A DNA stretch of 43,282 nt from Ignavibacteriaceae bacterium (GTDB lineage: Bacteria > Bacteroidota > Ignavibacteria > Ignavibacteriales > Ignavibacteriaceae), in contig JACZKK010000195.1 of NCBI GenBank assembly GCA_014860115.1, forward strand, positions 1 through 43,282, written 5' to 3'. Shown here in pieces: positions 27,725-43,282 of the stretch. The translations under genes and the position numbers were made by a program. How positions within the stretch are numbered: position 1 is the first letter of the stretch; every line of letters begins with the position of its first letter. A model generated the notes under the pieces. It was not told the origin of the DNA. It saw only the letters and a list, made by a program, of their open reading frames with translations, and searched no databases.

Positions 27725-27916
27725 ATGATAGAAATTGTTCCGGATAAATGTGACTTCTGCGGTTGCTGTGTAGGCGTTTGTCCCGAAGATGCAATAGAAA
27801 TGAAAGAAGCTGAAATTTTTATAATCGATCCGCGATGTACTAATTGTGCAAAGTGTGTGTGGAGTTGCCCGATCGAAGTAATCAAGTTTAATAGAGAAGG
27901 AGTACTTTTGAAATGA
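27725..27916 (+). CDS. 2[4Fe-4S] ferredoxin
   Basis: A 63-residue electron carrier. Seen: two complete cluster motifs, CDFCGCCVGVCP and CTNCAKCVWSCP, in the classic bacterial ferredoxin arrangement. The ATG at 27725 starts MIEIVPDKC, the usual short N-terminus; the 15 upstream in-frame codons fall in a repeat tract and are not counted. It probably feeds electrons to the geranylgeranyl-reductase-type flavoprotein 510 bases downstream, with which such ferredoxins are often paired; a four-helix-bundle gene now lies between. The stop codon overlaps the first base of an inverted repeat. Confidence 0.92.
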   Translation: MIEIVPDKCDFCGCCVGVCPEDAIEMKEAEIFIIDPRCTNCAKCVWSCPIEVIKFNREGVLLK

Positions 27917-27939
27917 GTCCTCAGTCTGCATTCCACAGT
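27916..27939 (+). repeat. left inverted repeat of the four-helix-bundle cassette
   Basis: 24 bases starting AGTCCTCAGTCTGC. The reverse complement reads as heptamers ACTGTGG, AATGCAG, ACTGAGG, ACT and matches the right copy at 19 of 24 positions by hand count. Confidence 0.75.
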
Positions 27940-27964: not shown

Positions 27965-28327
27965 ATGAGCACGTTTAGAGATTTAAAAGTATATCAAAAA
28001 GCATTTAAACTTGCGATGGATATTTTCAAGTTAACTAAATCCTTTCCGGATGAGGAAAAGTTTGGTTTGATTTCGCAAATAAGAAGATCATCACGAAGTG
28101 TTTGTGCTTCGATCGCTGAAGCCTATAGAAAGAGAAAATATCCCGCTCATTTTATTTCTAAAACTACAGATGCAGATATGGAAAACTCAGAAACACAAGT
28201 TTGGTTAGATTTTTCGCTTAGCTGCAAATTTATCGATCGTGAGACTTATGATGATTTTGTGAAGCGATCCGAAGAAGTAGGTAAGATGTTAAACCATATG
28301 ATTGAAAATCCAGAGAAATATATATAA
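27965..28327 (+). CDS. four helix bundle protein (23S rRNA intervening-sequence type)
   Basis: A 120-residue all-helical protein of the S23/IVP family. Seen: FRDLKVYQKAFKLAMDIF at the N-terminus, the signature LISQIRRSSRSVCASIAEAYRK, and the C-terminal helix EEVGKMLNHMIE. Known: these proteins were first described within insertions in 23S rRNA genes and are scattered in Bacteroidota; related Avd proteins help retroelement-driven variation. The function here is unknown. Close inverted repeats on both sides mark it as a separate unit. No reverse transcriptase is in the window. Confidence 0.9.
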   Translation: MSTFRDLKVYQKAFKLAMDIFKLTKSFPDEEKFGLISQIRRSSRSVCASIAEAYRKRKYPAHFISKTTDADMENSETQVWLDFSLSCKFIDRETYDDFVKRSEEVGKMLNHMIENPEKYI

Positions 28328-28348: not shown

Positions 28349-28372
28349 ATTGCGGACTGCCAACTGAGGACT
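28349..28372 (+). repeat. right inverted repeat of the four-helix-bundle cassette
   Basis: 24 bases reading ATTGCGG, ACTGCCA, ACTGAGG, ACT; the heptad pattern continues to 28381 (CTG, ACTTC). It is inverted with respect to the copy at 27916-27939. Confidence 0.75.
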
Positions 28373-38544: not shown

Positions 38545-39078
38545 ATGAGTAAACTAAATCAAGGCTTCATTCAAATTTACACCGGTAACGGAAAAGGAAA
38601 ATCTACTGCAGCAATTGGCCAGGCAGTCCGTGCTGCTGGTTTTGGTTTGAAGACTTACATTGCCCAGTTTATGAAAGAATATCCATACAACGAATTAGTC
38701 AGTCTTAAACATCTTTCCGAATGGATATTGATTGAGCAATTCGGAGGTGATGAGTTCGTTTATAAAAAAGAGCTTCCCGGTAAAGAGGAATTAGCCAAAG
38801 CACGAAACGGATTGCAAACAGCCAGAGAAAAAATGTCAGGCGGCGAATATGATATCATAATTCTTGATGAAGCAATTGTTGCAATTTACTTTAAACTCAT
38901 TCGAGCAGAAGAACTATTTGAGTTCATTAAAATGAAACCAGAAAGTGTTGAATTGATTTTAACCGGAAGATATTGTCCAGAAGAGCTAATTGAATTAGCT
39001 GATCTTGTTACAGAAATGAAAGAAGTAAAACACTACTATCAGAAAGGAATTACTTCGAGAAGGGGAATTGAAAGCTGA
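38545..39078 (+). CDS. cobO: cob(I)yrinic acid a,c-diamide adenosyltransferase (CobO/BtuR type)
   Basis: Transfers the adenosyl group from ATP to cob(I)alamin or corrinoids, producing adenosylcobalamin. Seen: P-loop GNGKGKST at residues 14-21, YIAQFMK, DIIILDEAI (Walker B-like), LTGRYCPEELIELADLVTEM, and the KGITSRRGIE tail. At 177 residues it fits the CobA/CobO type. It follows the DinB-like gene by 6 bases. Other cobamide genes are absent here, so it may serve salvage or a nearby B12-dependent enzyme outside the window. Confidence 0.93.
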   Translation: MSKLNQGFIQIYTGNGKGKSTAAIGQAVRAAGFGLKTYIAQFMKEYPYNELVSLKHLSEWILIEQFGGDEFVYKKELPGKEELAKARNGLQTAREKMSGGEYDIIILDEAIVAIYFKLIRAEELFEFIKMKPESVELILTGRYCPEELIELADLVTEMKEVKHYYQKGITSRRGIES

Positions 39079-39267: not shown

Positions 39268-39927
39268 ATGAAAAGCATATCAAAAGAAGATTACTTAAGT
39301 GTAATTTATAAATCAGCAGACAGTAATGGAGAAATAAGGGCTAACCAGATTGCTGAGAATCTCAACATATCTGCAGCAGCAGTTACAGATATGCTTCGTA
39401 AACTTTCCAATGAAGGATTTGTAGAATACAAACGCTACAAAGGAACCAAGCTTACAAAAAGTGGTGAGGAATATGCGAGAAATATGGTCAGACGACACAG
39501 GATCTGGGAGTTGTTTTTGCACCAGATTGTTGGTTTGCCATGGGACAAAGTCCACAATGAAGCACATAATCTTGAGCATGGATCATCCGATGAATTAATT
39601 AATAAGTTGGAAGAAATGCTTGACTTCCCGGAATATGATCCACACGGGGATCCGATTCCAGATAAAAATGGTAAACTGCCAAAAGGTAGTTCAGGAGTGC
39701 CGCTTAGTACAATAGATCCCGGAAGGAAAGTTAAAGTGAATCGTGTTCATGACTTTGACAGCAGTTTCCTGAAATATATTTCCAAAATTGGAATTGAGTT
39801 AAATAAAGAAATAACTGTTGTGGATGCTATGGAATTTGATCATTCATTATTAGTCAAGATTGATAAAAAAGAAACGAGTATTAGCAGCAAAGTAGCTGCA
39901 AACATTTTTGTAACAGAGGTTAAATAA
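39268..39927 (+). CDS. DtxR/MntR family metal-dependent regulator
   Basis: A 219-residue iron- or manganese-responsive repressor. Seen: winged helix (about 5-65; IRANQIAENLNISAAAVTDMLRKL), a dimer/metal domain with D8, H77, E81, H96, H100, E103 and H104, the conserved [12 protein letters not shown], and a C-terminal SH3/FeoA-like domain. D8 matches the MntR-type ligand; the position held by Cys102 in DtxR is His100 here. It sits at the head of an operon with a DtxR-FeoA fusion and feoB, so it probably represses iron uptake when metal is plentiful. Confidence 0.92.
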   Translation: MKSISKEDYLSVIYKSADSNGEIRANQIAENLNISAAAVTDMLRKLSNEGFVEYKRYKGTKLTKSGEEYARNMVRRHRIWELFLHQIVGLPWDKVHNEAHNLEHGSSDELINKLEEMLDFPEYDPHGDPIPDKNGKLPKGSSGVPLSTIDPGRKVKVNRVHDFDSSFLKYISKIGIELNKEITVVDAMEFDHSLLVKIDKKETSISSKVAANIFVTEVK

Positions 39928-39936
39928 AAGATAACT

Positions 39937-40968
39937 ATGACAGATCCATTAATAACATTACTAATAGGCTCTGGAGTAATTCTGCTTGCCGTGGTCTCAT
40001 TCTTCCCGCAAAAAGGATTAGTTGCCCGGATGAAGCGAAGCAAAACAATATCCAAAAGAGTTTTGACTGAGGATGCTCTGAAGCATTTATATGACTGTGA
40101 ATATAGTGGAGTAAGCTGCACTTTGAACAGCGTTGCCGGAAAACTTTCAATCTCCGAGGATGAAGCAGCAGGATTAATAACGAAGCTTGAGGAAATGGGA
40201 TTGTTAACTTCACATCTGGAAACGCTTCAGCTATCGAGTGAAGGAAGATCATATGCACTAAGGATAATAAGATTTCACAGATTATGGGAAAAATATCTTG
40301 CAGATGAAACTGGTGTGGATGAATTGCAATGGCATCATTCTGCTGAAGAATTCGAACACAAGTTAACGCCTTTGGATGCCGATGCACTCGCTGCACAAAT
40401 TGGTAATCCTGTTTTTGATCCTCACGGTGATCCCATTCCTTCCAGTGATGGCATACTTCCGGATAAGAAAGGGAAACCACTTACTGATTTACAATTTGGA
40501 GAGTTTGCAAGCATCATTCATATCGAAGATGAACCGGATGCCATATATCAACAGCTTGTTGCCGAAGGATTATATCCTGGCATGCAGGTGAGGATGCTGG
40601 AATCTACTAAGGAAAGAGTGAGATTTACAGCGAACGGAGAAGAGTGTTTATTAGCTCCATTATTTGCGAAAAATATTACAGTATCCTCGATCAAATTTGA
40701 AAAAACTGTTGAAGGCAAATTCAAGAGTCTGTCTTCCTTAAAAACCGGTGAAAAAGGAAAGGTCCTTGGAATTTCTAAAGCGTTGAGAGGACAGCAGCGA
40801 AGAAGGTTGATGGATCTGGGAGTTGTTCCGGGGACAGAAATTATTGCTGAGTTGAAAAGTGCTTTTGGCGATCCGACTGCTTACAGAATTAAGGGAGCTT
40901 CAATTGCTCTTCGGAAAAAACTTGCTGATCGTATCTATCTGGTCTCAGAAAATGAAGGAATGAATTAA
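39937..40968 (+). CDS. membrane-anchored DtxR-like / FeoA fusion protein
   Basis: A 343-residue protein. Order: one N-terminal membrane segment (about 4-22), a DtxR-like winged helix (about 42-105), a metal/dimer domain with H114, E118, H133, E137, E140 and H141, [12 protein letters not shown], an SH3-like domain, and a C-terminal FeoA domain (about 258-335; [39 protein letters not shown]). FeoA normally is a small separate partner of FeoB. Fusing it to a membrane-tethered metal sensor suggests direct metal-dependent control of the transporter rather than classical DNA binding (inference). It ends 2 bases before feoB. Confidence 0.85.
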
Positions 40969-40970
40969 TT

Positions 40971-41771
40971 ATGAATCTGAATACAAATGCTTGTGAAACT
41001 TGCCCGGTTCATAATGCGGGAAATCTAAAAAGACTCGGCATTGATATGAGCACTTTTGATTTTGTGGTTGCTCTTGCAGGAAATCCGAATACCGGGAAAA
41101 GTACTGTATTCAATAATCTAACCGGATTGAAACAACACACTGGCAACTGGCCTGGTAAAACTGTTACCCGTGCTGAAGGTGGATTTGAATTTAACGGCAG
41201 CAAATACAAACTTGTTGATCTTCCGGGGACTTATTCACTTCTCTCAACCAGCACTGATGAAGAAGTCGCAAGAGATTTTATTCTTTTCGGTCAGCCTGAT
41301 GTTACTGTTGTAGTTGTTGATGCAACTCGTCTTGAGAGAAATCTGAATCTTGTTTTACAGATTTTAGAAATTACAGAGAGAGTGATTCTCTGTTTGAACC
41401 TTATGGATGAAGCAGAAAGACATCAGATTAAAATTGATGAAAGAATGCTTTCAAAAGATTTAGGTGTTCCTGTTATTCCTGCTGTTGCCCGTTATAACAA
41501 AGGAATGAATGAATTGCTCAATGCAATATATGAGGTTGCAACGGGAAAGTATATCTGCAAACCATATAGATTGAAAAGTAAATCAAGAGAATTAAATTTT
41601 GCTGTTGAGAAGCTAAGTAAAATGCTGCTTGAAGAATTCTCGAATCTCCCGAATGCAAAATGGGTTGCACTAAGATTGCTCGAAGGTGATCAAAGTATAA
41701 TTGATTCAATTAGAAATGGTGATTTAGGCAATATTAAAAAGCAAGAGCTAGTTGAATTATCAACGGCTTAA
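40971..41771 (+). CDS. feoB: FeoB N-terminal GTPase part (split gene)
   Basis: A 266-residue G-protein part of the ferrous iron transporter FeoB. Seen: Cys pair C8/C11 (CETCPVH), G1 GNPNTGKST (37-45), G2 Thr in PGKTVTR, G3 DLPGTYSL, G4 NLMD, and the helical GDI-like domain with [15 protein letters not shown]. It stops (TAA) at 41771, before the membrane domain. FeoB proteins of this type, as I know them, are single chains of about 600-700 residues; the membrane part begins at 42269. A GxxExxY gene with flanking repeats lies between. The two parts may still work together as separate polypeptides. Confidence 0.88.
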
Positions 41772-41785
41772 TTTAAAATTTATTA

Positions 41786-41811
41786 GCCACAAAGACACCA
41801 AGACACGAAGA
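41786..41811 (+). repeat. left inverted repeat of the GxxExxY cassette
   Basis: 26 bases whose reverse complement is three octamers of the form TCTTNGTG (N = C, G, T) plus GC. It ends 1 base before the ATG of the GxxExxY gene, and its AAGA end may serve as ribosome-binding site. Confidence 0.85.
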
Positions 41812-41812
41812 A

Positions 41813-42199
41813 ATGAATCCATTATCAGAAAAAGAAGAGAGAATCGGAAAAATAATTGTAAATGCTGCCTTTAAAGTTCATAAAGAATTAGGTCCTGGCT
41901 TACTTGAAAAGATTTATGAAATAGCTTTGACACATGAACTTCAGAAAGCAGGATTGGAAGTTAAGAGACAAGTTGAAATTCCAATTGTGTATGATGGGAT
42001 TAAATTCGATGAAGGATTAAGATTGGATTTGTTAGTTGAAGATTTAGTAATTGTAGAAACAAAAGCAATTGAGCAAGTCAATCCTGTTTGGATGGCACAA
42101 GTTCTTAGTCATCTAAAATTAACTAAAAGAAGGCTTGGTTATTTAATCAACTTTAACGTTCCACTAATTAAAGATGGAATTAAAAGATTAGTTTTATAA
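41813..42199 (+). CDS. GxxExxY family protein (PD-(D/E)XK-like)
   Basis: A 128-residue protein. Seen: the namesake motif G29-LL-E32-KI-Y35, then a PD-(D/E)XK-like site with D72 (RLDLLV) and E82-T-K84 (VIVETKA), and LTKRRLGYLINFNV near the end. The family is widespread and scattered in Bacteroidota and others, with nuclease-like motifs but no settled function. The ATG is 2 bases after the left repeat, and the stop is 1 base before the right repeat, so gene and repeats form one unit. Confidence 0.92.
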   Translation: MNPLSEKEERIGKIIVNAAFKVHKELGPGLLEKIYEIALTHELQKAGLEVKRQVEIPIVYDGIKFDEGLRLDLLVEDLVIVETKAIEQVNPVWMAQVLSHLKLTKRRLGYLINFNVPLIKDGIKRLVL

Positions 42200-42200
42200 A

Positions 42201-42226
42201 TCTTGGTGTCTTTGTGTCTTCGTGGC
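42201..42226 (+). repeat. right inverted repeat of the GxxExxY cassette
   Basis: 26 bases: three octamers TCTTNGTG with N = G, T, C, plus GC. It differs from the reverse complement of the left copy only at the three N positions, as if the octamers were rotated by one unit. Confidence 0.85.
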
Positions 42227-42238
42227 AAAAGATAAAAT

Positions 42239-42251
42239 CACTAAGACACGA
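42239..42251 (+). repeat. third partial octamer repeat
   Basis: CACTAAGA followed by CACGA, the same octamer family (CACNAAGA) in the orientation of the left copy, 12 bases after the right repeat and 17 bases before the second feoB start. Confidence 0.5.
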
Positions 42252-42268
42252 TAATGAAATGAAAAGCG

Positions 42269-43282
42269 ATGAATAAAGAAAAACAAAATAGCGAAGCAAT
42301 TCTTTCAACAGCGAATAACCTTCGCTGGGAAATTGGTGAGCATTTCCACGATACTTTAATGGAATCAATTTATTTAAATGCTTCTGATATTTCAAAACGT
42401 GCCGTAACTCTCCCTGCTGAAAAAGAAACAGTAAGTTGGGAAAAGACCGTTGATAAAATTTTAACAAGCCGTTACACAGGTATTCCGATTATGTTTCTCA
42501 TTCTTGGTGTGGTATTCTGGTTAACTATCGAAGGTGCAAATGTACCATCCGGATTGATTGCCTCTTTCCTTTTAGATACAATTCATCCGGCATTAAAAAG
42601 TTTATCTTCGTTCATTGGTATGCCGTTCTGGTTAGATGGTGTTTTGATAGATGGTGCATATCTTGCAATGGCCTGGGTTGTAAGTGTAATGCTTCCACCT
42701 ATGATGATATTCTTCCCGTTGTTTACATTACTGGAAGATTTTGGTTATTTGCCGCGCGTCTCATTTAATATGGATAATCTTTACAGAAGAGTTGGTGCAC
42801 ACGGCAAGCAGGCATTAACAATGGCAATGGGATTTGGATGCAATGCAGCAGGTGTGGTTGCAACGAGAGTAATTGACAGTCCAAGAGAAAGACTGATTGC
42901 AATCATCACAAATAATTTTTCTTTGTGTAATGGAAGATGGCCGACACAAATTCTTATTGCAACTATTTTTATCGGTGCAGCAGCTCCTGCTTATCTTGCC
43001 GGAATAGTATCGGCTGCTGCAGTTGTTTTTATTGCTGTACTTGGAATAGTTTTTAGTCTCTTGGTTTCGTGGGGATTATCAAAATCTGTTTTGAAAGGAG
43101 AAGCATCAGCTTTTAGTCTTGAATTACCACCTTACAGACCACCGAGAATTTTACGAACACTTTACACATCTCTGATTGACAGAACAATTTTTGTTCTTTG
43201 GCGTGCAATTGTTTTTGCAATACCGGCTGGAGTGGTTATCTGGATTGTTGGCAATGTAACAATAGGTAGCGAATCGCTTGCT
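42269..43282 (+). CDS. feoB: FeoB C-terminal membrane part (split gene, runs off window)
   Basis: 338 codons open to the window edge; no stop is reached. Seen: helical linker (LSTANNLRWEIGEHF), VDKILTSRYTGIPIM, then the polytopic membrane domain with VMLPPMMIFFPLFTLLEDFGYLPR, the gate motif GFGCNAAGVVATR and NNFSLCNGRWP. These match the FeoB variant with GCNAAG rather than GCNVPA. An in-frame TGA lies 9 bases before the ATG, so it is not read in continuity with upstream sequence. The ATG at 42269 has only a weak AAAAG element before it. It is the second part of the transporter interrupted by the GxxExxY cassette. Confidence 0.88.
   Translation, partial: MNKEKQNSEAILSTANNLRWEIGEHFHDTLMESIYLNASDISKRAVTLPAEKETVSWEKTVDKILTSRYTGIPIMFLILGVVFWLTIEGANVPSGLIASFLLDTIHPALKSLSSFIGMPFWLDGVLIDGAYLAMAWVVSVMLPPMMIFFPLFTLLEDFGYLPRVSFNMDNLYRRVGAHGKQALTMAMGFGCNAAGVVATRVIDSPRERLIAIITNNFSLCNGRWPTQILIATIFIGAAAPAYLAGIVSAAAVVFIAVLGIVFSLLVSWGLSKSVLKGEASAFSLELPPYRPPRILRTLYTSLIDRTIFVLWRAIVFAIPAGVVIWIVGNVTIGSESLA

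Follow-up and report, generated by a model that had tools for sequence, protein, structure and literature searches.

FeoB encoded as two conserved open reading frames in Ignavibacteriaceae and relatives, with an inverted-repeat-flanked GxxExxY gene at their junction

INTRODUCTION

One-chain FeoB proteins (TIGR00437; the E. coli/Vibrio type) contain a G domain, a helical domain, Gate and FeoB_C, with FeoA domains nearby. The locus described here has the same domains in the same order and also has FeoA domains close by, but it encodes two polypeptides, with the cut within the helical domain, and its FeoA domains are carried on a DtxR-type protein. Other departures from the usual chain boundaries have been reported, for example FeoA–FeoB fusions in Bacteroides fragilis (PMC8980893), and in split-Doa10 a polytopic membrane protein has been divided naturally, through gene fission (PMC3464245). 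For small genes in small inserts, two described systems are relevant: REP/REPIN elements with their RAYT genes (PMC3116915) and the intervening sequence of Coxiella 23S rRNA, a small insert with a small S23 ORF that has been called selfish (PMC4990558). These statements refer to the parts of the four papers that were accessible.

A paper on Feo evolution calls the mechanism of Feo unclear in its accessible part (PMC8749426), and its main text contains none of the words ‘split’, ‘DtxR’, ‘truncated’ and ‘Ignavibacteri’. In the literature searched, which leaves out most subscription papers and holds some papers in part, we found no description of a FeoB divided into two proteins, and none of GxxExxY elements with repeats (including the accessible parts of PMC10734462, PMC10353542 and PMC8934634; the last is one of two papers that use the name GxxExxY, and mentions it incidentally). 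The FeoB pair is known to annotation, as databases list its halves separately, and is undescribed as far as this literature goes.

RESULTS

The feo locus

The window, i.e. the whole stretch of DNA that was analysed, is an entire draft contig of 43,282 bases (G000:C41; G, C and L numbers refer to genomes, contigs and loci). Judging by the named genomes nearest to it, the source probably belongs to the Ignavibacteriaceae. Its feo features are as follows (basis in brackets).

39268..39927, + strand: DtxR/IdeR-type metal regulator with HTH, dimerisation and FeoA domains, first in the operon (Pfam)
39937..40968, + strand: protein with a hydrophobic N-terminal helix, a DtxR dimerisation domain and two FeoA domains (Pfam, conservation upstream of FeoB)
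40971..41771, + strand: FeoB GTPase half, with the G domain and the first part of the helical S/GDI domain (ORF, Pfam, alignment)
41785..41810, + strand: left arm of the cassette, GCCAC outermost, units of period 8 (inverted-repeat comparison)
41813..42199, + strand: GxxExxY gene, predicted PD-(D/E)XK nuclease with D72, E82 and K84 (Pfam, TIGR04256, alignment, structure model)
42201..42226, - strand: right arm of the cassette, the left arm inverted (inverted-repeat comparison)
42234..42251, + strand: degenerate extra copy of the left arm, located past the right arm and forming half of an R-loop-L palindrome (direct repeat)
42269..43282, + strand: FeoB membrane half with Gate and FeoB_C, 338 aa in the window (ORF, Pfam)

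An earlier note on this DNA had described a GTPase ORF ending with TAA at 41771, a membrane ORF from 42269 and a GxxExxY gene with inverted repeats between them, all of which we confirmed. The GTPase half is an ORF of 266 aa (stop codon TAA) that matches FeoB_N (PF02421, 2.6e-62) and, partially, FeoB_Cyto, and it aligns with the solved NFeoB structure 3k53 over residues 32–260. The membrane half starts with ATG and is open at the contig end; contig C150 extends it to 477 aa through an exact overlap of 141 nt. It matches Gate (PF07670, 1.7e-17), FeoB_C (PF07664, 5.1e-13) and positions 225–497 of TIGR00437, and a solved-structure search gave no relative of it at E ≤ 0.001. Neither half reaches the TIGR00437 equivalog cut-off of 315.65 bits: the GTPase half scores 217.9 and the membrane half, cut by the contig end, 163.1. 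The membrane half carries the motif GCNAAG..NNFSLCNGRWPT, which we take to depart from the canonical motif of one-chain FeoB. The same genome also encodes an intact FeoB paralogue of 669–680 aa. Beside the iron operon, the window has an ORF with a GNGKGKST motif (38545–39078), presumably resembling a cobalamin adenosyltransferase of the CobA type.

The best ungapped inverted repeat around the GxxExxY gene (128 aa) pairs 41785–41803 with 42201–42219 (19 nt, 95% complementary); over 24 nt the arms have three mismatched positions. These flanks score 22, and none of the 33 other genes of the window (ORFs of at least 100 aa) has flanks scoring 16 or more, so the repeat is not due to chance. Palindromic flanks, such as the one to which the extra left-arm copy belongs, are present in other GxxExxY cassettes too.

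Position of the break

In an alignment with canonical FeoB, the GTPase half stops after a helix of the cytosolic helical domain, and the membrane half opens just before the helix ANNLRWEIG, which corresponds to the stretch ADKRYNFI in a one-chain relative (L272). This places the cut within the cytosolic helical domain, which both chains would be needed to complete. The earlier note had put the cut in the linker between the soluble and membrane domains, which is not quite where it falls. It had also pointed to similar segments on the two sides of the junction (ELSTA and AILSTA) as a possible duplication made on insertion. The likeness is real; however, AILSTA is also found in a locus without a cassette (L012), and the membrane halves of other relatives open with equivalent segments (ILATA, ILSLA and similar), so the segments were not duplicated on insertion.

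Age and spread of the two-ORF FeoB

We analysed two sets of loci, which overlap, so that their counts are not independent: the best 30 loci of a homology search, the window's own included (L009–L038), and the 80 named loci that a genome scan yielded (L051–L130), 79 of them evaluable (L102, at a contig start, was left out). In all 30 loci of the first set the halves are separate ORFs, and the position of the break is constant. Two ORFs are found in 78 of the 79 evaluable named loci as well, and a single chain in one (Mariniphaga, L090, 744 aa), the only true one-chain case among six loci that carried an automatic ‘FUSED’ flag, which is raised by any overlap. Taking the nearest start codon, the halves overlap by 1–20 nt in 23 named loci, are 0–70 nt apart in 47 and lie farther apart in eight. 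Most relatives with a split feoB carry no cassette at the junction. The two FeoB halves are separate conserved ORFs of one gene cluster across the clade, and the split of feoB is older than the cassette. The claim of the earlier note that the GxxExxY gene had split feoB thus fails: in cassette-free relatives feoB likewise consists of two ORFs, and their ends are the same, which is the pattern the note itself had named as contradicting it.

The note had left a choice between a recent disruption and a working two-polypeptide FeoB. If the cassette had recently broken a one-chain feoB, the fragments would now be decaying or would have been rescued as two ORFs. Consistent with this, the cassette does separate the halves, there are one-chain members, L090 and G037, whose boundaries are the same, and in a near relative (L010 of G003) the GTPase half is spread over two reading frames, by a frameshift or a draft error. 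The split in cassette-free relatives, however, refutes it. Moreover, dN/dS against six relatives is 0.047–0.102 for the GTPase half and 0.047–0.125 for the membrane half (dS 0.77–3.03, partly saturated), so both halves are constrained; and the cassette has diverged at synonymous sites about as much as its host genes (own locus versus G033: pS 0.64 for the cassette, 0.69–0.70 for FeoB), which indicates that the insertion is old. We consider a recent break highly improbable. Conservation and constraint of both sequences favour a working two-polypeptide FeoB. As the window is a draft contig whose end truncates the gene, the two ORFs might also be a frameshift or an assembly artefact, but the architecture recurs in independent assemblies, including one-contig genomes and named isolates, which refutes this explanation and leaves it next to no chance.

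Among the matches listed beyond the best 30, there are at least five more frames of 475–489 aa and one of 734 aa. By record title, carriers include Maribacter, Arenibacter, Flagellimonas, Tenacibaculum, Melioribacter, Anaerolineales, Gemmatimonadaceae and Latescibacterota, among others. In a phylum sample of 61 genomes, 12 contain a member of the split-FeoB clade at 60% identity or more. In 11 of these 12 the frame is uncut by a contig end: nine of the frames have 471–497 aa and two are long, namely a single-chain FeoB of 723 aa that branches near the base of the split clade (G037) and a 781-aa frame that is probably a single-chain member too (G071). In a FastTree of 108 taxa, read for topology only (L051–L053 and ten duplicates of the relatives' loci were left out of the alignment, and two partial sequences were dropped from the tree), 12 intact FeoBs are separated from the split clade, L090 and G037, and the single chain of L090 is nested within the split clade. 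Given these single-chain members, nested (L090), near the base (G037) and probably also G071, split and fused forms appear to interchange.

Seven plasmid records have a match; in five Bacillota ones the pair is found at 44–46% identity. In the one Bacillota record that we inspected, the two ORFs overlap and are preceded by a FeoA gene. Five of the seven records label the pair ‘FeoB small GTPase domain-containing protein’ and ‘nucleoside recognition domain-containing protein’; as the latter label is the one given to the membrane half, name-based surveys can miss it.

Our preferred reading, which we consider very probable, is a two-subunit FeoB whose split predates the cassette, the GxxExxY gene and its arms being an independent element that settled in the junction later. 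The first gene would provide a soluble GTPase with most of the helical domain, and the second the membrane pore plus the final cytosolic helix. The two chains would meet by jointly completing the helical domain and, as in one-chain FeoB, the membrane subunit would be gated by GTP binding, here in the small subunit. The role of FeoA would fall to the DtxR-FeoA-FeoA protein encoded upstream.

The upstream DtxR-FeoA-FeoA gene

In 78 of the 80 named loci, the gene immediately preceding the GTPase half encodes a homologue of the 39937–40968 protein; a contig end truncates the other two loci. The homologue in L085 is just 31% identical, and that in L125 is cut. The N-terminus is hydrophobic in all 73 homologues tested (more than 38% identity, N-terminus in view). 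In many named loci a homologue of the DtxR-type regulator lies farther upstream, preceding the DtxR-FeoA-FeoA gene. From these sequences, we infer that the DtxR-FeoA-FeoA protein is membrane-anchored and replaces a free-standing FeoA, and we regard it as a candidate FeoA partner of the split FeoB. It is also a possible membrane-bound iron sensor.

The cassette at the feoB junction

We found a GxxExxY gene at the feoB junction in five loci: the window's own, G002, G033, L065 and G045. The genes of the first four, all from Ignavibacteriaceae, are related (82–88% identity), and the G002 copy is frameshifted. The gene of G045 is 43% identical to that of the window and closer to another GxxExxY type, and in L071, a close sister of G045, the junction has no cassette. 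No GxxExxY gene was found at the junction in 77 of the 79 named loci. Losses are indicated by remnants of the cassette: on inspection by eye, L057 retains part of the coding sequence, and L010 and L013 retain parts of the arms. The distant gene of G045, its cassette-free sister and the remnants together suggest at least two insertions and several losses at this site: a first insertion would have occurred in the ancestor of part of the Ignavibacteriaceae, with later loss or decay in several lines, and a second, separate one in G045. At the L010 junction (in G003), where the cassette has been lost, an unrelated G+C-rich palindrome (CCTGCCTACCGGACAGGCAGG) is found at the same spot.

Alternatively, the GxxExxY gene could be a stable functional member of the feo operon (e.g. 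an iron-linked regulator) rather than a mobile or selfish element, given that it has the same strand and junction in the four Ignavibacteriaceae loci and is under purifying selection (dN/dS 0.051 for own versus G033, 0.067 versus L065). Its absence from the junction in nearly all named loci argues against this, as do the frameshift in G002, the losses marked by remnants, and the relatives of the gene in the window's own genome, which sit among unrelated genes. We consider operon membership unlikely.

The GxxExxY protein

The GxxExxY protein of the window has a single Pfam match, PDDEXK_3 (PF13366; 3e-40, 137.7 bits versus a cut-off of 22), and also matches TIGR04256 (1e-41, 141.9 bits versus a cut-off of 35). 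D72 and K84 are invariant, and E82 is present in at least 90%, in an alignment of 76 proteins: that of the window and 75 of 81 intact ones (L048, the window's own, and L011, L131, L141, L158 and L206 were left out; seven genes with stops had been skipped in collecting intact proteins). The predicted structure has a pLDDT of 95.4. Its best match via structural comparison is SSO0001 (Z 9.7, rmsd 3.3, 98 aligned), which we take to be a Cas4-type nuclease; the next neighbours are restriction enzymes and Hjc resolvases, with Z scores below 8, weak when taken alone. Foldseek gave no match of the model at E ≤ 0.001, and a sequence search of solved structures found nothing. With both the catalytic residues and the fold present, the protein is a predicted PD-(D/E)XK nuclease.

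In three genomes (G106, G082 and G092) the GxxExxY domain is found within an open frame of 883 aa. In G106 (L327, 2289–4937) it forms the N-terminus of an in-frame fusion with a RecQ-type helicase (DEAD, Helicase_C, RQC and HRDC domains), which supports a role on DNA. A defence role is unsupported: in a PADLOC search, neither the GxxExxY gene nor an S23 gene of the window (see below) had a match at E ≤ 0.01. The family is found in 29 of the 61 genomes of the phylum sample. It is present on six of 72,556 plasmid records and on none of 50,697 phages, which rules it out as common plasmid or phage cargo.

Arms and orientation of the cassettes

We compared the left flank of each GxxExxY gene with its inverted right flank (match at a score of 16 or more), using flanks swapped between genes as controls. 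Matched inverted arms were found for 61 of 87 genes, versus 21 of 435 swapped pairs (88 genes were collected, including those with stops, and one with a short flank was dropped), and in a separate phylum-wide sample for 13 of 24 genes versus 8 of 480 swapped pairs. Read by eye, the arms are arrays of short units with a period of 8–9; a three-unit arm pattern was found at 8 of 269 loci. Flanks are self-palindromic (score of 14 or more) in 22 of 174 cases, versus 1 of 174 after shuffling. Where no shared flank was detected, arm likeness follows protein likeness (Mantel r 0.449, reached in 0 of 2000 permutations, n = 79). Among the 88 genes examined, 71 have both neighbours called (by crude ORF calls), and 63 of these are codirectional with both, compared with 18 of 33 genes in the window.

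Spacers of the window's own genome contain solitary palindromes with arms of the window's type (L040–L042, L044 and L045). Read by eye, their order is R-loop-L, which is the cassette order inside-out.

The window contains a second small gene flanked by inverted repeats, at 27965–28327 (S23/four-helix bundle, PF05635; arms 27916–27937 and 28351–28372). PF05635 has nine matches in this genome and 19 in G002. With 24 of 30 such genes used, 8 have flanks scoring 18 or more versus 3 of 120 swapped pairs, and 11 have flanks scoring 16 or more versus 8 of 120; the inverted-flank signal is weaker than that of GxxExxY genes.

Are the cassettes mobile?

Orthologous spacers were compared within the genus for three of the genome's four own cassettes (L049, on contig C69, was left out). 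The flanking genes are, by our reading of their protein sequences, alaS, radA, hemE, hemN, hutH and rmuC. The alaS–radA spacer is plain in G001, G002 and G004 and has a decayed copy in G003. In the hemE–hemN spacer, G002 and G004 have elements that lack the gene and differ in arm type, and G001 has nothing similar. In the hutH–rmuC spacer, G002 and G005 have gene-less elements, G003 the same cassette and G001 unrelated sequence.

Gene-less elements are also dispersed. The pattern AATRGNACRCNGAT has 17 sites in the window's genome and 35 in G002, with no control matches in either, few sites in G003–G005 (the controls have one match each in G003 and G004) and none in G001. Of 16 sites chosen, 15 are left-arm/right-arm elements of 63–119 nt, and the remaining one is reversed. 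In G002 (L302, C1:463700–465200), tandem gene-less elements with a repeated spacer of ∼26 nt surround a GxxExxY element with like arms, and for this reason the gene-less elements look like internal deletion derivatives.

Recent copying of gene-bearing cassettes within genomes was not found: in a comparison of copies from nine genomes, the most similar within-genome pair has 67% identity, which weakens the reading of active mobility. No target-site duplication was recognised at pairs of filled and empty sites, whose spacers are highly diverged, and the position of several cassettes is conserved across genera. These three observations, and the near absence of the family from plasmids and phages, would fit cassettes that are ordinary chromosomal genes with transcription or RNA-processing hairpins, spread by descent and ordinary recombination. 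This is a serious possibility, but one that we lean away from: orthologous sites within the genus are empty or gene-less, the arms are specific to their element (61/87 versus 21/435), arm type tracks protein similarity where no shared flanks were detected, and gene-less versions with matching ends are dispersed.

Tentatively, and with what we judge a nearly even chance of being right, we propose that GxxExxY genes encode the nucleases of small mobile elements that form a widespread class not described so far; judging from the sequence comparisons, the mobility of these elements may be rare or past. Such an element would consist of a nuclease of ∼125 aa between palindromic arms of 8–9 bp units, co-evolving with its own arm type. 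It would spread into operon spacers, codirectional with the host operon, shed gene-less versions, and could take over the site of an older element. The nuclease may cut the cruciform arms, after which recombination would copy the element in.

DISCUSSION

A natural two-chain FeoB allows GTPase and pore to be expressed, titrated and mutated apart, and split FeoB is present in named flavobacterial isolates. The GxxExxY cassettes, if mobile, would provide a function for a common orphan nuclease family and represent a new kind of bacterial element.

As in the FeoA–FeoB fusions (PMC8980893, in its accessible part), the boundaries of Feo chains are rearranged here; there, however, chains are joined, whereas here FeoB itself is divided. 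Split-Doa10, as far as the accessible part of its description goes, resembles split FeoB in being a polytopic membrane protein in two chains, but it is not a GTPase/pore pair. Doa10 is eukaryotic and unrelated in sequence to FeoB.

RAYTs are encoded by small genes flanked by palindromic repeats, and the protein is an HUH transposase. REPIN/RAYT systems and GxxExxY cassettes share a palindrome-flanked small gene and dispersed, paired gene-less derivatives. Unlike RAYT, the GxxExxY protein has a PD-(D/E)XK fold and no HUH (Y1) transposase domain (its only Pfam match is PDDEXK_3), and unlike those of REPINs, its arms are short-period arrays that change with protein type. The S23 intervening sequences resemble the cassettes in having a small ORF in a small insert, and the PF05635 genes found here also have inverted flanks; but S23 ORFs lie in rRNA and encode a four-helix bundle, whereas GxxExxY genes occupy spacers between protein genes and have a predicted nuclease fold.
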